A DNA stretch of 64,000 nucleotides, from NCBI RefSeq assembly GCF_040729435.1, contig NZ_CP160398.1, positions 1,798,001-1,862,000 of the forward strand, read 5' to 3'. Origin of the DNA: Pseudomonas sp. HOU2 (GTDB taxonomy: Bacteria; Pseudomonadota; Gammaproteobacteria; Pseudomonadales; Pseudomonadaceae). The notes beneath the pieces are model-generated. The model did not search any database. It was not told where the DNA came from and saw only the letters and a list, made by a program, of their open reading frames with translations. A program made the translations under genes and the position numbers. Positions 8,170-19,175 of the stretch are shown here, piece after piece (the stretch's first letter is position 1; every line of letters begins with the position of its first letter).

Positions 8170-8572
8170 TTGATTGTTTCTATAAGTAACGCGATTGCGT
8201 TATGCGTGCACTAATGTGTAACGTAATCGCCACAAAAAAGTGCATTTTCTAACATCTGATTCGATTATGAACTTTGCTTATAACGTTCGAAAACTTTTGA
8301 ACAAGCTATTCGTCCAAGCCGCACTAGTAGGCTGACTAACTGCCAGCAGGGGCAGGAAAACCGGGGTCTTCGCGGGGCTTGTTTTTTCTCCCGTAGTTGG
8401 CGTAGAGTTTGTCCACTGTGTTTGCATGGGTCAGCTTGGAATCGTGACCTGGGCAGTAGCCTACAAGTTAGCTACATCCCGCTCGACGTCTTCTTACTCT
8501 CCTGCAACCAGCCCCAGTACTCTTTCATGAGAAAGAGACTGTCATCAATTTATGCGTCAAAGGAAATAAGAA
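8170..8572 (+). promoter_or_regulatory. Long leader/promoter region of the cold-shock gene
   Basis: Four hundred bases separate gcvT from the cold-shock gene without a credible gene. An inverted repeat TAACGC-GATT-GCGTTA lies at 8187-8202, and an AAGGAAATAAGAA ribosome site ends the region. Long structured leaders are typical of cspA-like messages, where they act as temperature-sensitive switches. Whether this one does so, and where its transcription starts, cannot be read from the sequence. Confidence 0.45.
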
Positions 8573-8785
8573 ATGTCGACACGTCAGAGCGGTACCGTCA
8601 AGTGGTTTAACGACGAGAAAGGTTTTGGTTTTATCACTCCAGAAAGCGGTCCGGATCTGTTCGTGCATTTCCGCGCTATTCAGGGCAACGGCTTCAAGAG
8701 CCTGAAAGAAGGCCAGAAAGTGACCTTCGTTGCTGTGCAAGGCCAGAAAGGCATGCAGGCTGATGAAGTACAAGCAGAAGGTTAA
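8573..8785 (+). CDS. Cold-shock domain protein (CspA family)
   Basis: A 70-residue single cold-shock domain that binds single-stranded RNA/DNA and melts mRNA secondary structure. It carries RNP1 (KGFGFI, residues 17-22) and RNP2 (LFVHF, about 29-33), and the opening [11 protein letters not shown] is diagnostic. It has a clear ribosome site and is monocistronic, with a strong terminator 12 nt after the stop. The 400-nt leader suggests post-transcriptional control. Confidence 0.95.
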
Positions 8786-8797
8786 TCTTCTGTAACG

Positions 8798-8832
8798 AAA
8801 AAGCCCCTGATATTGATATCAGGGGCTTTTTT
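8798..8832 (+). terminator. Intrinsic terminator of the cold-shock gene
   Basis: A perfect stem GCCCCTGATAT/ATATCAGGGGC around TG is flanked by an A-run upstream and six T downstream. It can act in both directions. Confidence 0.92.
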
Positions 8833-10837: not shown

Positions 10838-10918
10838 CTAGCGCAGCGGGTAGATGGAACCGCCACGTTTCTTTTTCTTACGCTTGAACAGACTCAAGAT
10901 TTTTCGAATGATGCCCAT
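10838..10918 (-). CDS. 26-residue basic peptide ORF at the end of the accessory operon
   Basis: ATG at 10918 opens 26 codons ending TAG at 10838. The peptide starts MGIIRKILSLFKR, then a lysine-rich block KKKKR, and ends GGSIYPLR. A good Shine-Dalgarno GGGAG lies 9 nt before the ATG, inside the 3' end of the preceding gene, and the frames overlap by 41 nt, which suggests translational coupling. The short amphipathic N-terminus and defined GG-SIYPLR tail look selected rather than random. The function is unknown: membrane-associated micro-protein, enzyme partner or peptide scaffold. The gvg cluster of P. fluorescens WH6 reportedly needs two ORFs of under 150 nt, a relevant precedent. It is too short for standard gene callers. 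Confidence 0.6.
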   Translation of the reverse strand: MGIIRKILSLFKRKKKKRGGSIYPLR

Positions 10919-12014
10919 GCTGTTGCTCCCGATAGAGGCCTAATTCGGCACTGATGAGTTTTGCCAATTGCTCGTTGCCCAGGTCATTGAAGTGGACGCG
11001 ATCGACAAAAAGGGTTTCGTTGAAGACCGGCGACTGCCTGAGCATGGAATTCATGTCCAGGCAGCGGATGTCACCGGCCTTCGCCTGAATATGCGCGAAA
11101 AACGGCGCGTGCACTTCCTTGCCCAGTACGCCGCTGAATAGCCGGTAGAAGTTGTTCGGACAGCTGTCGATGGCATGGAATACAGCTTCTTCATCCGCCG
11201 TCAGTTGATCCCGGCACCAGTGGGACAGGGGTTGAAGGACGAAGCTCAGGGTAGCGCCACTGCCCGACAGCAGCAGTTGCCATTGCTTCAATGCGTCGGT
11301 GATGGAATCAGCCGCGCGCTCCAGACGTTCGTCCAGCGAGATCCCCTCGTCGGTGATGACTTCATCCGCCGGGTTTTCATAGAACAATGCTTTCTTGCAG
11401 CGCTGCAGCCAGGACTCGCCCCCCTTGGAACCGAACGAGTTCTTTTTGCGTTGCATGTCCTCATTGAATTTATTCATGTAATGCTGAAATTCGAACGAGT
11501 AGTAATAACGCCCATGCTCGCTGGCGAACTCGTCGGGGATACCCTCCAGAGCCAGGGTGTTGATGCCGCTGAACACCACGACATGACCGATATCGCCCAG
11601 ACGCTTCTGATGCATGAGGAACATCAATAATTCCTGGGTAGAGTTGTAGCCCCGGCCGGCAAAATTCAGCCACACCTCGCCAGTCAACTCGCTGAGCCTG
11701 GAAGCCACGGTAAACGCATCGCGCGTAGCGCCCACACCCAGTGCGGTCGAACCGCCCACCAGCAAGTTGATCTTGCCATTGGCCGGAAGCTCAGTGACCG
11801 AAAACCGCTGGCCTTGATATTCGCTGTAACGAAATCCGAATGCGTCGGTATTGATCGTCGGCGAACGAAAGTTCTTTTCATGGAAGTACATGGTATAGGG
11901 CACCCAGCGCGCGCCGATGTGCATGAAGCTATCGTAATCACGGATTTGCGGGGTCCACCTGTAGACCTCCTGCACCGCCTGGTGGTGATTCAGTTCGGGT
12001 TTGTCAGTCAAGGG
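10878..12014 (-). CDS. SGNH/GDSL-hydrolase-like protein of the accessory operon
   Basis: A 378-residue protein with SGNH-fold signatures: GGSTALGVGA (nucleophile Ser block), an Asn-containing FSGINTLAL block, and a C-terminal DRVHFND that matches the DxxH catalytic pair. The start is set at ATG 12014 after GGAGAACGCACT, overlapping the carbamoyltransferase stop. SGNH-like proteins often accompany NodU/CmcH carbamoyltransferases in natural-product loci, acting as esterases or acyl/carbamoyl-handling enzymes; the substrate here is unknown. There is no signal peptide, so it is probably cytoplasmic. Overlapping frames on both sides indicate one transcript. Confidence 0.7.
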   Translation of the reverse strand, partial: PLTDKPELNHHQAVQEVYRWTPQIRDYDSFMHIGARWVPYTMYFHEKNFRSPTINTDAFGFRYSEYQGQRFSVTELPANGKINLLVGGSTALGVGATRDAFTVASRLSELTGEVWLNFAGRGYNSTQELLMFLMHQKRLGDIGHVVVFSGINTLALEGIPDEFASEHGRYYYSFEFQHYMNKFNEDMQRKKNSFGSKGGESWLQRCKKALFYENPADEVITDEGISLDERLERAADSITDALKQWQLLLSGSGATLSFVLQPLSHWCRDQLTADEEAVFHAIDSCPNNFYRLFSGVLGKEVHAPFFAHIQAKAGDIRCLDMNSMLRQSPVFNETLFVDRVHFNDLGNEQLAKLISAELGLYREQQHGHHSKNLESVQA

Positions 12015-13836
12015 CATAGTGCGTTCTCCAGTCGGTCTCTTCATTCCATTGAGGCTGGTCGGACTTGGTCAGCAGAAACTGACCGATCACCAGACAATCC
12101 ATTTCCGTGCGCATGAAGCAGCGGTAGGCGTCTTCCGGACTTTCAACGATCGGCTCCCCCCGAACGTTGAACGAGGTATTGATCAGTACCGGGCAGTCCG
12201 TCCGCTCGGCAAATGAGCTGAGTAACTGTCGAAACCGCGGATTGTGTCTGCCATCCACGGTCTGCACCCGAGCGGAGAAGTCCACGTGAGTCACTGCCGG
12301 TATTTGTGAGCGCTTGAGCTTGAGCTTCTCGATACCGATATAGCCGACGTCATTCACGTTTGGCTCTCGCTTGTCAGGCTGTACCGGCGCGACGATCAAC
12401 ATATAGGGCGACGGGTGATCCAGATCGAACCATTCGTGCGCCTTTTCGGCCAGAACCACTGGGGCAAACGGGCGAAACGACTCACGGTTCTTGATTTTCA
12501 GGTTCATGACGCTCTGCATGTGTTCCGAGCGAGGGTTCCCCAGAATCGATCGCGAGCCGAGAGAGCGTGGGCCAAATTCCATGCGCCCCTGAAACCATCC
12601 GATGACTTTGTCTTCGGCCAACCGCGCGGCCGTCGCCTCGATCAAGGCCAACGGATCGAGCTTTTGATAGTTGGCTTTCAGCTCACACAGGTACTGTTCG
12701 ATCTGGTCATCACTGTAAGCATTGCCAAGATAGGCACCTTGCATGCTGTCCTCGGTGCCGTCCGCCTGACGTTGCATCCCGGTCTTTTCAAAATGGCATT
12801 GCAACGCGGCGCCAAGAGAGCCCCCGGAATCCCCCGAGGCTGGCTGGATGAACAAACTTTTGAATAACCCGGATCTGGCCAGTTTGCCGTTGGCCACACA
12901 GTTCAGGGCCACACCACCGGAAAGGCACAAATGCTCGGCGTTGGTCATTGCCTTGACCTTGCGGGCCAGTCCGAGCATGACCTGTTCGGTGACCACCTGG
13001 ATGGAGGCCGCCAAATCCATTTCCCGTTGAGTGATGAGAGCCTCGGGTTCGCGCGGCGGGCCAGCGAACAAGGTCTCAAAGGCATCGCTGATCATCCGTT
13101 CGCCCACCTCATAATCGAAGTACTGGCGATTCAGCGTGAAAATGCCGTCGTCTTCGATCCGGATAAGATGCTCCAGAATGGTCTCGACATATTTCGGCTC
13201 ACCGTAGGGCGCCAGCCCCATGAGCTTGTATTCCCCGGAGTCAACCTTGAACCCGCAGTAATAGGTGAATGCCGAATACAACAAACCAAGAGAATGAGGG
13301 AAACGAACCTCGAACAGCGGTTCGAGGCGATTACCGGTGCCATGCCAGGCGGTGGTGGTCGACCACTCCCCTACACCGTCGACACACAACACAGCGGCAT
13401 CCTGGAACGGTGACGGATAGAACGCCGAAGCCGCGTGACTCAAATGATGCTGACAGAGATACAACGGGGGCATTGCCACGCCGGGAAATAGCGTCTGCAG
13501 TTCGCGAGCGATGATGCCCTCGACGTCCTTTCGCGCGACGAAGCGGGTGTAGTTTTGCGCGAACGCCAGAGCGCCTCGCGGGAAATTGCTCTTGTAGGTG
13601 TGGCAGATTCGCTCGAACTTGATGCTCGGGTCTTCGTAATAGGCCAGCCAGCTGATATCCGCCAGCGTGATACCTGCCTGATCCAGGCAGGCGAGCAAGG
13701 CTTTGGCCGGGAAGCGCTTGTCCTGTTTGACCCGTGAAAAACGCTCTTCCTGCAATGCGCAGACGATTTTTCCGTCCTTCAGCAGGGCCACCGCGCTGTC
13801 ATGGTAGAACGCCGAGATTCCAAGAATGTAACTCAT
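12004..13836 (-). CDS. O-carbamoyltransferase, NodU/CmcH/TobZ family
   Basis: At 610 residues it is a full-length two-domain carbamoyltransferase: an N-terminal Kae1/TobZ-like domain from MSYILGISAFYHDSA and a C-terminal YrdC-like domain. The metal-binding HxxxH is His130-His134 in QHHLSHAASAF, with Asp153 in CVDGVGEW. Family members use carbamoyl phosphate and ATP to make carbamoyl-AMP and transfer the carbamoyl group to a hydroxyl of a secondary metabolite. Here the acceptor is probably a hydroxyl or N-hydroxyl made by the two putative oxygenases of the operon (inference). It overlaps the exporter gene by 4 nt (ATGA). Confidence 0.9.
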   Translation of the reverse strand: MSYILGISAFYHDSAVALLKDGKIVCALQEERFSRVKQDKRFPAKALLACLDQAGITLADISWLAYYEDPSIKFERICHTYKSNFPRGALAFAQNYTRFVARKDVEGIIARELQTLFPGVAMPPLYLCQHHLSHAASAFYPSPFQDAAVLCVDGVGEWSTTTAWHGTGNRLEPLFEVRFPHSLGLLYSAFTYYCGFKVDSGEYKLMGLAPYGEPKYVETILEHLIRIEDDGIFTLNRQYFDYEVGERMISDAFETLFAGPPREPEALITQREMDLAASIQVVTEQVMLGLARKVKAMTNAEHLCLSGGVALNCVANGKLARSGLFKSLFIQPASGDSGGSLGAALQCHFEKTGMQRQADGTEDSMQGAYLGNAYSDDQIEQYLCELKANYQKLDPLALIEATAARLAEDKVIGWFQGRMEFGPRSLGSRSILGNPRSEHMQSVMNLKIKNRESFRPFAPVVLAEKAHEWFDLDHPSPYMLIVAPVQPDKREPNVNDVGYIGIEKLKLKRSQIPAVTHVDFSARVQTVDGRHNPRFRQLLSSFAERTDCPVLINTSFNVRGEPIVESPEDAYRCFMRTEMDCLVIGQFLLTKSDQPQWNEETDWRTHYALD

Positions 13837-14450
13837 ACCACCCCCTGCACGAAGGCGAAAATCGCAATGGCGAAAAACAGCACGGGCGGCAGATAGTCAA
13901 ACCAGGTGGCGCGCTGGATGGCGCCTCGCAATGAATGCGCGGTCAGCCCGACCGTCATATTCACCAGAATCCCGCCGATATTGAAAATGAGCCCGTAAAG
14001 CAGAAAATGCAGCCACGCAGGACTCGCATCGGACGGCACGAATTGCGGCAGCAGACTGATAAAAAACAGACCGATCTTGGGGTTCGACAGGTTGATCAGC
14101 ATGCCTTTGCTAAACGCATAGCTGGCTGGCGCTGGCGGGATTTCGCTGCCTTCAGCCGTACCGCCAACAGGACGGCGGGGCCAGGAAATATAGGCCAGAT
14201 ACAACAAGTAAAAAGCCCCGGCAATCTGCACTGCGCGATACAGCAGCGGCACTTCCTTGAAAATCAGTACCAGGCCGAATGCTGCCAGCAACACGTAGAA
14301 AAACACTCCAAACTCAACGCCCGCCGCCGCCCGCAAACCGGTCCTTACGCCATGCTTGAGCGATTGGTTCATCACGTACAGCATCGCTGGCCCGGGCGCC
14401 AGGTTGATGACCAGTACCGCCAAAATGAAAGATAGAAATCCGTAGCTCAT
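13833..14450 (-). CDS. LysE/RhtB-family amino-acid exporter (first copy)
   Basis: A 205-residue inner-membrane protein with about six hydrophobic helices and the family signature NLAPGPAMLYVMNQSLKHG near the N-terminus, followed by GxxxG-rich helices. RhtB proteins export amino acids and analogues by proton antiport. It overlaps both neighbours by 4 nt and is therefore co-translated with the di-iron protein and the carbamoyltransferase, which points to product export or self-protection. Confidence 0.88.
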   Translation of the reverse strand: MSYGFLSFILAVLVINLAPGPAMLYVMNQSLKHGVRTGLRAAAGVEFGVFFYVLLAAFGLVLIFKEVPLLYRAVQIAGAFYLLYLAYISWPRRPVGGTAEGSEIPPAPASYAFSKGMLINLSNPKIGLFFISLLPQFVPSDASPAWLHFLLYGLIFNIGGILVNMTVGLTAHSLRGAIQRATWFDYLPPVLFFAIAIFAFVQGVV

Positions 14451-16645
14451 AATGCATCCTGCCGTTGTGTGATTTTGTTGTAACTGCGTCGGGTAAAGTC
14501 ACGCAGCGCGGCCAGCAGTGACGCTTCGGGCGGGCTCAACGCACGGTAGCCGACCCAGACGCGCTGCCAATGGTGAGCGAGTTCCGTTTGCCCACCGTTC
14601 TGCGCCACATCATCCAGATGTAGTTTGATCGCCTCGATGGCCCAGGCTGTGTGGCCACTGACCACGTTGTCGATGGTGTTGTGGAGGTCGGTAAACATCG
14701 AGTTGAAGCCGTAGTGCCGCAAGACGTCAGCCGAACGGCGATACTCGCCTCCCACACCCGACAGTTCCATGGCGAGATTCAAACCCAGGGTTTCCGGTTG
14801 AAAACTTTGCGGAAACAGTGAAATGGCGAGCCAGAACACCGGAACCTGCAGACAGTCATCGTCAAAATGCGTGGATGCAGCAAAGGACCGAGCCGTGAAC
14901 GTCCCGACATCGACCCCCATACTGGTCAACAGCTCCTGGTAGATATTGCCGTGATGGAGCGCTGTATCGCCTTGGCCGAGCTCGTCGATCAGAGTGCGGT
15001 ATAGCAATGCGCCGATCGGACTGGTGACAATCGCCGGCTTGACGATGTTTCGCAGCCAGGCACCATCGATCAGGGTCAAGGGCGCCAGCCGCGTCGCGTC
15101 GGCAATAATCTCCTCGCGACTTTCTTCGGGTACCTGCGTCAATGGTCGGTAGCTTTCAACCTGTCGCTTGTGCTGCGCGGCTAACCACTGATCCAATCGT
15201 TGATGACTGTAAACACTGAACGGCAGTCCTTCACTGCGCACAGCCTGTTGATGGCGTGCCAACCACCGCTCGGCAAAAAGCCTGGCTGCCGGCAGGGCAT
15301 CAGGCGCCTTGTCAATATGAAGGAACAGGGGGTAAAGCTGCTGTAGCGAATAATCGGAATACTTGGCCAGTGCCAGTTGCCGGGCTTGAGCCAGTGCTTG
15401 TTCGCAAAGCGTTGCCGATTGCTCAGGAGATGGAGCGGTCAGCGGCGGCGGAGCAACAACACTCAAACTCTCTCTGTTCAGCGATGCGATCCAGGTATCG
15501 ACGACTTGAATATCTTGCGCAGAAAAAACCCCGAACATCCTGCCTTTCGGGTGACTGATGAGATTCATCAACGCGCTTTTTCCCGGCTGGCCAGCCCTGA
15601 CGTAACGAGAGTTAGCCAGCGCCTGAATCGTCGCCTGCGCATTGAAGGTTTGCGGATCCAGCCAATGGTCGATCGGTTGGTCGGCCAGTTGCCCACGCTT
15701 GTGATAACCGCAGCCATGAGGACCCAGTTTTTCAATCAATGCGAGCATGGCCGCCGCATTACTGAAACGCGCTTCATCCTTGAGTTCGCTGGCCAGGCGT
15801 TTTTCACTTTTCTGAATCAGACTCAGTGCGCAAGCAAAGCCTGTGGCGATCCGGTCATGCGCCTGCGAATCGACCTGCGCCAGGAAATAGTCAATGGCCT
15901 CCGCCGCCGCCGGCCAATACCGGTCGCTGGATGAACAGCCAAAGACAGGGTTGCCCGCTTGCGCACACAGGATGTTGAGCTGATCGAGATAACCGCACAT
16001 TGCAAGATTGACGCCCAGGGTTTCGGCGAACCGTGTCGCTGGAAAACTTGCCAGGCCTAGCAAGAACACCGGTAGCTCGTAAGCGGCGCCCTCTATGTTC
16101 GGGTCATGACTGAAACTGTTCGCGAATACTTCATTCAAGTGTACCCCTGCCTGCCGTGCGGCCTGCTCGAACAAATAGCTCTGGCTCAAGGACGGATACC
16201 CTCCCCCGACCAGCCGCGCATGTGTCTGAAGCAGCAAACCACCATCCTTGCGCCACGCGTAGGCGATCGAAGTCACGCCGCAAAGCCAGCCACCGAGGGT
16301 TTTAAACAGCGGCGCATATTGATAGTAAAAATGACGTCGCTGCGGCGCATCGTGAAGAGTGTCTGGCATGTCCTGACGAATTTGCGCCCCGAGTGCCTGG
16401 ATATCGCGCTGTCCCGCAACAATAAACGCAGCAAGATCTGCAGCCTCGCCCACCGCGCGATGAGGATTCAGATATTGATCGATATTGTTCCAGACCAACT
16501 CCATCAGCCCATGACTCTGTTCCTGGTTAATCAGCCTGAAAAACCATTGACGAGGGCTATATCTCAGCGTCGCGAGTTCCGTCGAAGAGATCGCCAGAAA
16601 AATCGGCACTTCGTCATCAGGTAACGCAGAAGTACTACCGGCCAT
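14447..16645 (-). CDS. Duplicated haem-oxygenase-like di-iron oxidase (HDO superfamily)
   Basis: A 732-residue protein with two haem-oxygenase-like repeats. The C-terminal repeat carries the likely metal set: Glu555 (DELGQGD), His564/565 (LHHGNIY), Glu618 (PETLG) and His655/Asp659/His665 (HNTIDNVVSGH). The N-terminal repeat keeps FAETLGVNLAM (about 206-216) but has Leu, Ser and Gln where the first Glu and His should be and lacks the HxxxD motif, so it looks inactive. Family relatives (UndA, SznF, BesC, MgoB-type) carry out oxidative cleavage or N-oxidation in natural-product pathways. I chose ATG 16645 after AAGGATCGAATA; upstream ATG 16669 and TTG 16699 remain possible. The substrate is unknown. 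Confidence 0.75.
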   Translation of the reverse strand: MAGSTSALPDDEVPIFLAISSTELATLRYSPRQWFFRLINQEQSHGLMELVWNNIDQYLNPHRAVGEAADLAAFIVAGQRDIQALGAQIRQDMPDTLHDAPQRRHFYYQYAPLFKTLGGWLCGVTSIAYAWRKDGGLLLQTHARLVGGGYPSLSQSYLFEQAARQAGVHLNEVFANSFSHDPNIEGAAYELPVFLLGLASFPATRFAETLGVNLAMCGYLDQLNILCAQAGNPVFGCSSSDRYWPAAAEAIDYFLAQVDSQAHDRIATGFACALSLIQKSEKRLASELKDEARFSNAAAMLALIEKLGPHGCGYHKRGQLADQPIDHWLDPQTFNAQATIQALANSRYVRAGQPGKSALMNLISHPKGRMFGVFSAQDIQVVDTWIASLNRESLSVVAPPPLTAPSPEQSATLCEQALAQARQLALAKYSDYSLQQLYPLFLHIDKAPDALPAARLFAERWLARHQQAVRSEGLPFSVYSHQRLDQWLAAQHKRQVESYRPLTQVPEESREEIIADATRLAPLTLIDGAWLRNIVKPAIVTSPIGALLYRTLIDELGQGDTALHHGNIYQELLTSMGVDVGTFTARSFAASTHFDDDCLQVPVFWLAISLFPQSFQPETLGLNLAMELSGVGGEYRRSADVLRHYGFNSMFTDLHNTIDNVVSGHTAWAIEAIKLHLDDVAQNGGQTELAHHWQRVWVGYRALSPPEASLLAALRDFTRRSYNKITQRQDAL

Positions 16646-16708
16646 TATTCGATCCTTGATTGATGGCATTGAATTGCTTCGGATAACCAGACCGTACAAG
16701 CAGTCAAC

Positions 16709-17335
16709 TCATGACAAATTGAACAGTTCGCGCACGTTATAGATCAGCCCGGACAAGGCAATCAAAAGCAATGCGACACCCGAGCCCTTGGAAATCAAGT
16801 GGCTGCTGGTTTTACTCAGCAGTTTCCTGGTCATGAAAATATATAAACCCAGAATGGCAAAATCGATCACAACCCAGAGTAACGAGAGCAGGATCAGGCT
16901 GTGCTTCGAGGAAGAGGTAATCTGGATGAACTGGGGAAAGAATGAGATAAAGAAAATAATGTCTTTGGGGTTGGAAATACCCACGATGAACCCGTGCCAC
17001 AGACCACCCTGCATCGCTTGTTTATCCGGGGATTGTGCCTCCGCAGATGCCGGATTGTTCTTCAGCGCATCAAGCGCCAGGTAACCGATAAAAAGACAAC
17101 CCAGCAAGCTGAGCATGTTCAACAACACGACATTGACAGCAGCACTGGCAACGATGATGTAAGAGGCCAGTGCAATCAGCATCAAGGAGGCCCAGTTCGT
17201 GCCTATCGCCGTCGAGAACGCCTTTCTCGGCCCGGCAGCGCTGGCAGTCGCGACCACTAGCGCGACGACGGGGCCTGGCGTCGCTATCAAAAGCATGACG
17301 GTCAAAATATAGGTAATGGCTAATGCAGTATTCAC
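16709..17335 (-). CDS. LysE/RhtB-family amino-acid exporter (second copy)
   Basis: A 208-residue exporter with the signature LIATPGPVVALVVATASAAG and an Asn-Pro-Lys motif (GISNPKDIIFFISFFPQF) typical of the family. It is only distantly similar to the first copy and visibly richer in A+T, so the two were probably not produced by a recent duplication. It starts 22 nt after the YcgG-family gene. Two exporters of this class in one small operon suggest import/export partition, product plus intermediate export, or resistance. Confidence 0.88.
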   Translation of the reverse strand: MNTALAITYILTVMLLIATPGPVVALVVATASAAGPRKAFSTAIGTNWASLMLIALASYIIVASAAVNVVLLNMLSLLGCLFIGYLALDALKNNPASAEAQSPDKQAMQGGLWHGFIVGISNPKDIIFFISFFPQFIQITSSSKHSLILLSLLWVVIDFAILGLYIFMTRKLLSKTSSHLISKGSGVALLLIALSGLIYNVRELFNLS

Positions 17336-17357
17336 GCCTTGCTTGCCCCGCTGTCGG

Positions 17358-18116
17358 TTAATCGATATTCATTCGAAAAGGGCATCGCTCATGACTCAGT
17401 GATCCCGGTTCTTCAAGTTGGTATTGTTTGATTTCAAAGTTGCCCGGATCACCAAAAACACCGAGCGTTCTGGAGTACACGCCTCCGTTGTAGGCATCAG
17501 AACGGGAACGAATACGTGCACGAATACGTTGTCCGCTCAGCGAGTTACCGGCAGCCACCTGGTCAAAATTTTCTCGAGGATTGATCACGAATACGATATG
17601 CGTCCCCAGGTTCCTGCTTTTCATCAGGCGATGCCGGGGAAAGTTCATGTTCACGAAAAGAGGTATCCCCATGAAAGAGAATGACCATTTTTCGCTACTC
17701 AGGTCGGCCGAAATCTCTCTTGGCCATGGCCCGGGATCCTGGTTGTGCAGCCTCTGCAAAAGATCCCAGGCATAAAGTTGCTCTTGTTCAAGAGAATCAA
17801 ACCCGTTGTTTTCCAACAGTACGATCAAGGGCTTGCCGACTCTACATTTCAGTGGCCAGGCATTTACCTTTTTCAAATAAGAAGCAAGCCCCGTCATGAA
17901 GTCGGTAACGTCAGATTCTTTACTGACAAACAAAAGTTCGATATTCGAAGACTTCACCGCTTTCATCCCAAACAGACAGGGAAAAGAGGCCTGGCGTACG
18001 ACACTTTCGAACACGTCTAATGCCGATGTTACCCAAGTCGTCTTGAGCGACTCATACACCTGCAGATTCTCAAGCCAATCCAGCTTGTTAAAACAACGTC
18101 CGTGTATAGCTACCAT
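17358..18116 (-). CDS. YqcI/YcgG-family protein, putative haem-dependent N-oxygenase
   Basis: A 252-residue member of the YqcI/YcgG family: FPCLFG near residue 50, LLQRLHNQDPGPWP, FMGIPLFVNMNFPRH, FVINPRENFD and a GDPGNFEIKQY end motif. Named members include GntA of guanitoxin synthesis, a haem-dependent guanidine N-hydroxylase; DcsA and AglA act similarly on arginine. It is thus a candidate to N-hydroxylate an amino acid at the start of this pathway. I chose ATG 18116 because GGAG lies 5 nt upstream; the frame extends to 18155 but that ATG falls inside the promoter palindrome. It is the first gene of the operon, AT-rich relative to the flanks. Confidence 0.75.
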   Translation of the reverse strand: MVAIHGRCFNKLDWLENLQVYESLKTTWVTSALDVFESVVRQASFPCLFGMKAVKSSNIELLFVSKESDVTDFMTGLASYLKKVNAWPLKCRVGKPLIVLLENNGFDSLEQEQLYAWDLLQRLHNQDPGPWPREISADLSSEKWSFSFMGIPLFVNMNFPRHRLMKSRNLGTHIVFVINPRENFDQVAAGNSLSGQRIRARIRSRSDAYNGGVYSRTLGVFGDPGNFEIKQYQLEEPGSLSHERCPFRMNID

Positions 18117-18138
18117 TGCATCTCCATGATGATGCTCA

Positions 18139-18166
18139 AAAAAAGTTATATGCATATACCTTTTTT
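18139..18166. promoter_or_regulatory. 28-bp palindrome in the divergent promoter of the accessory operon
   Basis: Two 14-nt arms centred on ATG|CAT (18152/18153) match at 13 of 14 positions: AAAAAAG, one variable base, TATATG, then the complement ending CTTTTTT. It lies 22-50 nt upstream of the first operon gene and about 90-115 nt upstream of the LysR gene, an ideal operator position. Binding by the adjacent LysR protein is inferred. Confidence 0.6.
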
Positions 18167-18254
18167 AGAAGACGCATTCTGGGAGAGGCCGGGATCGTTG
18201 TAAAACGAGTTAGATTATGATCTCTTATTAGTTTTACTCATGGTAGAAACCTGT

Positions 18255-19175
18255 ATGACGGAACGGATTCCCGCACTGTATTCCTTACGCGCATTTGAGG
18301 TCGCAGCGCGCTTTGTCTCATTCAGCAAGGCAGCCAGCGAGCTATCGGTCACTCAAAGTGCGGTGAGTCATCATGTTAAAACCCTCGAAGAACTTTTCGG
18401 TTGCAGCCTTTTCGAACGCCACGGACCAAAAATTAGCCTGACCGAACATGGGCGACTGCTCGCAGACGAGTTGAAGGTCGGCTTCAAGATCATCGAAAGT
18501 GCTTGTGAGCTATTGAAGGTGGATCGTCATCGGCTGCGCCTCAAGGCACCTTCGACGCTGACGATTCGCTGGCTTCTCAGAGCGCTGGATAAATTCAATA
18601 AACACAACAGCCATTGCTCTGTGCAACTCTCCAGTGTCTGGATGGATGTTGACGAGGTCGACTTCTACTCCGAGCCCTATGATTGCGCGATTCTGTTGGG
18701 GGATGGCAATTTCGGCCCGGCCATGGAGAGCTTTAAACTGTTTGATGAATGGCTGATCCCCATTTGCAGTCCTGGGTATCTGGAGCCGGAAGACCTCAAA
18801 CTGTCGTCGCTCAACGATCATGAATTGCTGCATCCCTCCACTGACCGGCGAGACTGGCGACGATGGCTGAAAAGAATGGGCTGCCTTGATACCACCAATA
18901 TAGAGCGCGGCCAGTTGTTCGACACCCTGGATCAGGGAATTGCCGCTGCCGTACAGGGTATGGGAATCTCCGTGGCAGATCTGGTGCTGGTTGTTCAGGA
19001 GATTCAGGCCGGCCAGTTGCGACTTCCATTCAAAAGCGCTGTGGCGACAGGGGATGGCTATTACATGACCTGGCTGAAAGCCAGCCCCAAGTCGCAGCAG
19101 ATGTGCCAACTGCGCGATTACCTGATGACTCAGGTTCATGCCCTCCCGACACAAGGTATCGCCTACCTGCTCTGA
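18255..19175 (+). CDS. LysR-type transcriptional regulator, GcvA-like
   Basis: A 306-residue LysR protein of the GcvA subgroup. The N-terminal winged helix-turn-helix runs from IPALYSLRAFEVAARFVSFS through SVTQSAVSHHVKTLEE (about residues 4-60), and the remainder is the ligand-binding domain. I chose ATG 18255 since GcvA-type proteins start just before the xxLRAFE motif; 18240 is an alternative. It is transcribed divergently from the seven-gene operon across a 138-bp gap holding a large palindrome, the classical arrangement for a LysR regulator and its target. The inducer may be the pathway product or precursor. Confidence 0.9.
   Translation: MTERIPALYSLRAFEVAARFVSFSKAASELSVTQSAVSHHVKTLEELFGCSLFERHGPKISLTEHGRLLADELKVGFKIIESACELLKVDRHRLRLKAPSTLTIRWLLRALDKFNKHNSHCSVQLSSVWMDVDEVDFYSEPYDCAILLGDGNFGPAMESFKLFDEWLIPICSPGYLEPEDLKLSSLNDHELLHPSTDRRDWRRWLKRMGCLDTTNIERGQLFDTLDQGIAAAVQGMGISVADLVLVVQEIQAGQLRLPFKSAVATGDGYYMTWLKASPKSQQMCQLRDYLMTQVHALPTQGIAYLL

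Follow-up and report, generated by a model that had tools for sequence, protein, structure and literature searches.

A gvg-like gene cluster of Pseudomonas sp. HOU2, joined to a YqcI/YcgG module, with a pathway that probably depends on a ribosomally made peptide

The closest described relatives of the locus analysed here are the gvg cluster of Pseudomonas fluorescens WH6, which belongs to 4-formylaminooxyvinylglycine (FVG), a natural herbicide and antibiotic, and the crocagin cluster. Table 1 of PMC8067088 lists GvgA as a lipase/esterase, GvgB as a lysine-rich small open reading frame (ORF), GvgC as a haem-oxygenase 2 protein, GvgF as a NodU-family carbamoyltransferase and GvgE, GvgJ and GvgK as LysE proteins, and reports that knockouts of gvgA, gvgB, gvgC and gvgF each abolish the FVG phenotype. 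The same paper, from 2021, terms the biosynthesis of FVG unknown and does not settle what GvgA, GvgC and the required small ORFs do (PMC8067088). Homologues of gvgA, B, C and F form the core of gvg-like clusters, which come in at least eight variants, one of them within the aldgamycin cluster (almUII/UIII/DIV/UIV; PMC8064604). In crocagin biosynthesis the hydrolase CgnD is described as freeing the core Ile-Tyr-Trp from CgnA, a peptide of 21 residues with six basic residues in its leader, Gly at position 17 and Asn preceding the core (PMC10070186). Here, we analyse an operon at 10838-19175 of a 64,000-nucleotide stretch of Pseudomonas sp. HOU2 (NZ_CP160398.1, 1,798,001 to 1,862,000; hereafter, the window), whose host genome is a single contig of 6.05 Mb. 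We consider it probable that this is a gvg-like cluster whose pathway depends on a peptide made by ribosomes and to which a YqcI/YcgG module is joined here. The basis for this reading is the gene content, the conservation of the peptide, its co-inheritance with the enzymes, the kinship of the SGNH hydrolase with CgnD and the residues of a haem pocket.

Gene content compared with gvg-like and crocagin clusters

The first-pass annotation had described seven minus-strand genes and a divergent LysR gene, and this gene set, read from the sequence and assigned to families by Pfam, proved real (Table 1). In the order of transcription, the minus-strand genes encode a YqcI/YcgG protein, LysE-2, a tandem haem-oxygenase-like protein (HDO), LysE-1, a carbamoyltransferase, an SGNH hydrolase and a micro-ORF peptide. 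Two gene pairs (carbamoyltransferase/LysE-1 and LysE-1/HDO) share the 4-nt overlaps noticed at first pass, and the SGNH and carbamoyltransferase genes overlap by 41 nt if the listed SGNH start is used, or by 14 nt if translation begins at the downstream ATG, which is likelier.

Set against the families in Table 1 of PMC8067088, four of the operon's seven genes are of gvg kind, as is the LysE type of exporter; hence the resemblance to gvg pointed out in the first-pass annotation stands, but it was put too weakly. Homologues of gvgA, B, C and F, the core shared by gvg-like clusters (PMC8064604), occur together in the window. Like the WH6 cluster, the window combines an SGNH/esterase protein, a lysine-rich ORF, an HDO, a NodU-type carbamoyltransferase and LysE proteins; unlike it, the window has an extra YqcI gene, LysR in place of MocR, and a peptide that ends in LR and is encoded at the far end. 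When compared with a gvg-type locus (L047, in which GvgR, A, C, D, E, F, H and I were assigned by eye and position), the window SGNH protein matches at 34% over 342 amino acids, the HDO at 33% and the carbamoyltransferase at 54%; across nine such loci (L047, L052, L053, L055, L056 and L058-L061) the HDO matches at 30-33% and the carbamoyltransferase at 54-56%. The genes that mark an FVG cluster (the aminotransferase GvgH, the formyltransferase GvgI and the MocR-type GvgR) set the window apart, as tblastn with the L047 proteins gave no window match for GvgR, GvgD or GvgH and, for GvgI, only a weak match over 71 residues at a distance of 37 kb. We found no characterised cluster of identical gene content in the mostly open-access literature. 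The window cluster is an uncommon variant of the gvg-like (herbicidal amino acid) family. In one further locus (L046, 7078-7266) a hydrophobic small ORF between the carbamoyltransferase and SGNH genes resembles the published, signal-peptide-like GvgG; the window has no room for such an ORF there.

With the crocagin cluster (PMC10070186) the window shares a CgnD-family hydrolase, a short basic leader before Ile-Tyr and a carbamoyltransferase (CgnI). It differs in that an HDO is present instead and the tail is IYPLR, not IYW; among the operon genes and their Pfam families there is no further one of the CgnB/CgnE-type binder or CgnC-type dioxygenase kind, the Cgn sequences themselves not having served as queries.

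The micro-ORF peptide and its partner enzymes

The new element here, previously overlooked, is the micro-ORF. It comprises 26 codons plus stop, shares 41 nt with the 3' end of the SGNH gene and has GGGAG located 7 nt ahead of its ATG. The peptide, MGIIRKILSLFKRKKKKRGGSIYPLR, consists of a basic leader up to GGS, followed by the tail IYPLR. Relatives were sought in 101 loci (the window, 20 chosen Pseudomonas stretches and the best 80 of 119 broader HDO relatives), which were selected through the HDO, hold 92 distinct HDO sequences, include some genomes twice and are in many cases of common ancestry. A small basic-leader ORF with the tail [S/T/E]-I-Y-P-[M/L]-x, in which I-Y-P is set by the search pattern, occurs in 93 of them, ranging over Pseudomonas, Streptomyces, Nostoc and Planctomycetes. 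The looser pattern [ILV]YPxx returned the same core throughout in 73 of the 80 broad loci, with one extra chance match in L104, against three matches in 240 shuffled loci (mononucleotide shuffling only); the strict pattern was absent from 51 control loci (368 kb; seven weak HDO-like and 44 YqcI loci). The 93 peptides average 29 amino acids, and their leaders contain 40% Lys/Arg and 5% Asp/Glu. The penultimate position is M (77) or L (16), and the last one is F (67), R (14), H (9), Y (2) or N (1). Between the micro-ORFs of the window and of its relative in genome G384 (locus L042), eight nucleotide differences are synonymous and two lie in residue-changing codons. Searched against PDB sequences, the peptide had no match to E 10.

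In P. fluorescens FW300-N2E3, a named gvg-cluster strain (PMC8064604), the peptide (L111) is encoded between gvgA and gvgC, has eight Lys in 27 residues and ends in SSIYPMF; the small ORF product of the gvg cluster is described as about 30% Lys (PMC8067088), and the gvgB-type gene as dropped from NCBI annotations (PMC8064604). The words 'YcgG' and 'SGNH' are absent from the main text of PMC8064604, and no statement that gvgB encodes a precursor was found there or elsewhere in the mostly open-access literature. At the sequence level, the micro-ORF product has the make-up of a gene-encoded precursor with a leader and a conserved core, as in ribosomally synthesised and post-translationally modified peptides (RiPPs), and its most likely role is that of a precursor or a scaffold. 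Since the micro-ORF has a family-conserved C-terminal Ile-Tyr-Pro and the SGNH protein is related to the leader-cutting CgnD, the minimal 'ribosome-independent' pathway proposed at first pass is probably wrong. A free amino acid could still be carbamoylated. Another minus-strand ORF, 18215-18352, was rejected as the operon micro-ORF, as it overlaps the LysR start on the opposite strand; the position 10838 given at first pass marks the ORF described above. In P. entomophila COR5 (L043, 5358-5668, and L093) a second copy of the same tail (KRKKKRGGSIYPLR) follows right behind the precursor ORF. In two short planctomycete stretches (L094 and L096) peptides ending in PEIYPLF stand immediately behind the HDO, with no SGNH or carbamoyltransferase match in these stretches.

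SGNH, HDO, carbamoyltransferase and peptide are all present in 89 of the 101 loci, the 12 remaining ones including short contigs and HDO-only loci. Hence, the window genes are not a chance set of ORFs, and the first-pass proposal of an operon for biosynthesis and export, built from two oxidative enzymes, a carbamoyltransferase and LysE proteins, gains from the co-conservation of its core elsewhere. As the loci were chosen through the HDO, this result means that the peptide goes with the HDO and does not give the frequency of the family. The LR-type loci, which hold 11 distinct HDOs, have the gene order HDO-carbamoyltransferase-SGNH-peptide in 14/14 cases, and 72/77 M-type loci have the order SGNH-peptide-HDO-carbamoyltransferase. 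In a tree of 92 HDO rows (quick method, midpoint root, long branches flagged) 73 rows fall on a single starred branch, of which 70 are MF/MH/MY, one is MN and two are peptide-less, and the peptide endings change nine times over the tree, compared with 28.9 times when labels are shuffled. The last two peptide residues track both HDO phylogeny and gene order. ATP-grasp and short-chain dehydrogenase/reductase labels in other loci were assigned by eye.

The SGNH protein had no Pfam or NCBIfam match at E 0.001. Against PDB sequences, its sole match was CgnD (8a2n, E 2e-48), which was also the only match of a profile of 13 SGNH proteins (E 4e-80). The window residues S99, D348 and H351 (GGS and DRxH motifs) occupy columns invariant in the 13 proteins and fit the CgnD triad of Ser79, Asp325 and His328 (PMC10070186). 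Moreover, CgnA resembles the window peptide in its layout of basic leader, Gly, small polar residue and then I-Y. The SGNH protein belongs to the family of the leader-cutting hydrolase CgnD and is, judged from sequence, a candidate RiPP leader peptidase with its triad in place and a putative cleavage function. An SGNH gene also follows YqcI in 9 of 12 further Pseudomonas stretches (L009-L011, L170-L174 and L177; not L175, L176 and L178). These nine operons, with LysR next to YqcI-LysE-SGNH, lie in stretches without HDO, carbamoyltransferase or SIYP peptide, and their SGNH proteins belong to the CgnD family, the triad being intact in the three that were aligned. Among 253 small ORFs from the nine operons there was no precursor candidate; the most widely shared ones, which were rejected, lie on the YqcI complement, and the next are other frames of large genes.

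The HDO belongs to Haem_oxygenas_2 (Pfam, E 1e-16), in keeping with the HDO fold, and its duplication, claimed at first pass, is borne out by a match between the N- and C-terminal halves (99.7% probability, E 1.6e-25). Candidate metal ligands (E555, H565, E627, H655, D659 and H665), invariant in 14 sequences, are present in the C-terminal copy and absent from the N-terminal one. The HDO had no match to PDB sequences to E 1, and Foldseek with its model found nothing under E 0.001; a second structural aligner gave rows mainly over residues 17-298, and thus the assignment of the C-terminal half rests on Pfam and the half-versus-half match. The carbamoyltransferase has both the N and C domains of the NodU/TobZ type (Carbam_trans_N/C, E 1e-89 and 8e-74), matches novobiocin carbamoyltransferase, GdmN and TobZ in PDB and, at 53-56%, matches the copies in gvg-type and related Pseudomonas loci. 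LysE proteins are amino acid exporters; the two in the window match Pfam at E 3e-29 and 3e-14. The position of LysE-1 between HDO and carbamoyltransferase is kept in window-type clusters and also in L091 and L092, and G384 has no LysE gene between YqcI and HDO.

The YqcI module, the proposed pathway and its rivals

The YqcI/YcgG protein (PF08892, E 8e-51), a predicted haem protein, has a Cys that aligns with the haem ligand of its family, and its placement with GntA, DcsA and AglA, made at first pass, holds. It shares with them the family, the Cys ligand and the guanidine-placing residues, and differs from AglA in being only 29% identical to it, over 218 aligned residues; against the GntA model it scored 47 bits, the cut-off being 145. 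C44, F152, R166, R179, F182 and R200 of AglA correspond to C60, F167, R181, R194, F197 and R216 of the window protein, all six invariant in nine homologues. In AglA, C44 is reported as the haem ligand, with F152, R179 and F182 positioning the guanidine (PMC12866846), and relatives are reported to hydroxylate arginine-type guanidines (PMC12866846, PMC8976061). The divergent LysR protein has a helix-turn-helix and a substrate domain.

Within the genus, YqcI occurs in each of the five genomes whose HDO is of window type (at least 60%: G000, G384, G148, G211 and G367), compared with 63 of a genus sample of 398 that includes these five. The naive probability of this is 9e-5, with no correction for kinship, and two of the HDOs, from G148 and G211, are close copies of each other. 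The YqcI genes of G148, G211 and G367 are found at a different locus, each accompanied by an SGNH gene of its own. Six further cluster genomes were considered (Dyella L092, Paraburkholderia L099, Nostoc L098, Lonsdalea L162, and Rhizobiaceae L091 and G109), and no YqcI was found in those of L092, L098, L099 and G109. As only two of the six have it, YqcI is not obligatory; it is an accessory of the window sub-group. The idea that an Arg tail is strictly paired with YqcI was rejected on the same count (five LR-type genomes plus L091, with L104 left out). A YqcI-only scan of genome contigs gave 13 pattern matches, with no relative among them. A stand-alone LysR-YqcI-LysE unit, found alone on plasmids of Thioclava, Pantoea vagans and Klebsiella pneumoniae and in Lonsdalea iberica (L005, L006, L008 and L184), perhaps exports an N-hydroxylated amino acid.

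Given these distributions, LysR, YqcI and LysE-2 could be a separate amino-acid oxidation or detoxification unit that merely adjoins a pathway made of HDO, LysE-1, carbamoyltransferase, SGNH and peptide. The stand-alone units on plasmids, in Pseudomonas and in Lonsdalea iberica, the four genomes in which YqcI was not found, and the five-gene form HDO-LysE-carbamoyltransferase-SGNH-peptide without adjacent YqcI (L043-L045 and Dyella flava) speak for such a split. However, the window and G384 each have the genes together in a single compact operon, the YqcI of G384 is the nearest found to the window copy (62%), and YqcI accompanies the HDO in 5/5 window-type genomes; we regard two merely adjacent modules as rather unlikely. 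In Dyella flava, no other gvg-type gene of those searched for stood beside the five-gene form. Downstream of this LR-type cluster lies an ORF (L092, 13730-14776) that we take to be arginase/ureohydrolase-like from its GVPTDIGAGH start, a neighbourhood that may be chance.

In the peptide-dependent pathway that we favour, the leader would bring the peptide to the enzymes, the ligand-less first HDO domain being a possible docking site. The second HDO domain would oxidise, and the carbamoyltransferase carbamoylate, either the tail itself or a substrate assembled on it, and YqcI would hydroxylate a guanidine nitrogen, either in free arginine or in the Arg that ends the tail. The CgnD-like hydrolase would then cut GGS|IYPLR and free the product for export by the LysE proteins, under the control of the divergent LysR. 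We infer each reaction, the cut site, export, the use of the peptide as substrate, and expression.

Several observations weigh against this pathway. The loci were chosen by HDO, with repeated genomes and shared ancestry, and seven of the 80 broad loci lack the peptide: L091 and L097, both short contigs, gave no SGNH match, L142 and L156 matched neither SGNH nor carbamoyltransferase, and L101 and L109 complete the set together with L095, in which SGNH and carbamoyltransferase are both present and still no peptide was found. A PF08892 protein is found in just L162 and L091 among the six further genomes, and there are operons that combine SGNH with YqcI and LysE in which the peptide was looked for and not found. 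GvgA and GvgC are seen as at least partly regulatory, their knockouts lowering gvg transcription to ~1% (PMC8067088), so that loss of FVG need not indicate a biosynthetic step. CgnD turns over slowly in vitro (PMC10070186), which leaves some doubt about its own assignment. The operon shows no carrier-loading ligase. As a single amino acid, FVG has no obvious connection to IYPMF, and the tail is near-constant across clusters with differing other genes; this agrees better with a role as handle or cofactor than with one as product. In carrier-peptide systems, an amino acid is altered on a peptide handle. The near-constancy of the tail and the small size of FVG make a handle likelier for gvg, and the FVG case favours the tail as handle rather than product; the five-gene form leaves room for a tail-derived product.

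Going further, we lean slightly towards regarding the GvgB-type peptides of four phyla as a new class of precursors or carriers, on or from which HDO and carbamoyltransferase would build metabolites including FVG, to be freed by a CgnD-type hydrolase, with the window as an Arg-tailed sub-class that would have recruited a guanidine N-hydroxylase. If true, a basic mini-ORF with S-I-Y-P at its end would mark these clusters (73 of the 80 broad loci taken from 119 HDO relatives, with T/E counted for S), and amino-acid-like metabolites would be linked with RiPP logic. Once GvgB is read as a precursor or scaffold, and GvgA as the enzyme that hydrolyses it, the open gvg roles become a directly testable question.

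Alternatively, the micro-ORF product could be an assembly micropeptide, its basic amphipathic part on the membrane and its IYPLR tail holding SGNH, HDO and carbamoyltransferase near LysE, with the enzymes using a free amino acid. A tail near-constant over phyla beside a variable leader suits docking, the leader is basic and, by eye, amphipathic, and FVG is an amino acid, the kind of compound that LysE proteins export. The SGNH protein, on the other hand, is kin to a hydrolase that cuts the leader off a substrate built in the same way, with a basic leader and then IY, and we consider this explanation unlikely. The first-pass model needs no peptide: YqcI would N-hydroxylate a free amino acid such as arginine, the HDO would oxidise it, and O-carbamoylation and export would follow. 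This model is compatible with the kept active-site residues, the guanidine substrates of YqcI relatives (PMC12866846, PMC8976061), the LysE exporters and the stand-alone YqcI-LysE pairs, but it seems quite improbable, as it leaves unexplained a micro-ORF whose motif recurs in 93/101 loci and does not fit the loss of the FVG phenotype on gvgB knockout (PMC8067088).

Features and genomic setting of the operon

Table 1. Predicted genes of the window operon (positions within the window)
Feature	Position	Strand	Remarks
Micro-ORF, 26 aa, GvgB-like	10838..10918	-	Basic leader and C-terminal GGSIYPLR; proposed precursor or scaffold peptide
SGNH hydrolase, GvgA/CgnD family	10878..12044	-	Likelier start 12017; Ser99, Asp348, His351
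NodU/TobZ-type carbamoyltransferase, GvgF relative	12004..13836	-	Pfam and PDB matches
LysE-1 exporter (predicted)	13833..14450	-	Pfam
Tandem haem-oxygenase-like protein (HDO), GvgC relative	14447..16699	-	Likelier start 16645; Pfam
LysE-2 exporter (predicted), YqcI partner	16709..17335	-	Pfam
YqcI/YcgG thiolate-haem N-hydroxylase-like protein	17358..18155	-	Pfam; Cys60 aligns with AglA Cys44
GcvA-type LysR regulator, divergent	18240..19175	+	Beside YqcI in other genomes and plasmids too

The cluster is flanked by nadA on one side and tRNA-Lys/queC on the other. The nadA-queC spacing is 8.8 kb in the window compared with 0.26-0.36 kb in three genomes (G002, G005 and G008); hence, the cluster looks like an insertion. 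Elsewhere the spacing is 1.6 kb (G001) or 15-47 kb (G003, G006 and G007), and in G004 no queC lies near nadA; with gaps of 0.26-47 kb among the compared genomes, the junction is variable. In G384 the related cluster is set among different neighbour genes. Promoter and terminator scans returned fewer sites than in shuffled sequence. The GC content is 50-57% in the cluster and 56-64% in its surroundings, except at 8-9 kb, where it is 50%. An Rfam cspA thermoregulator match at 8426-8832 of the window lies just above threshold (78.9 vs 78 bits).

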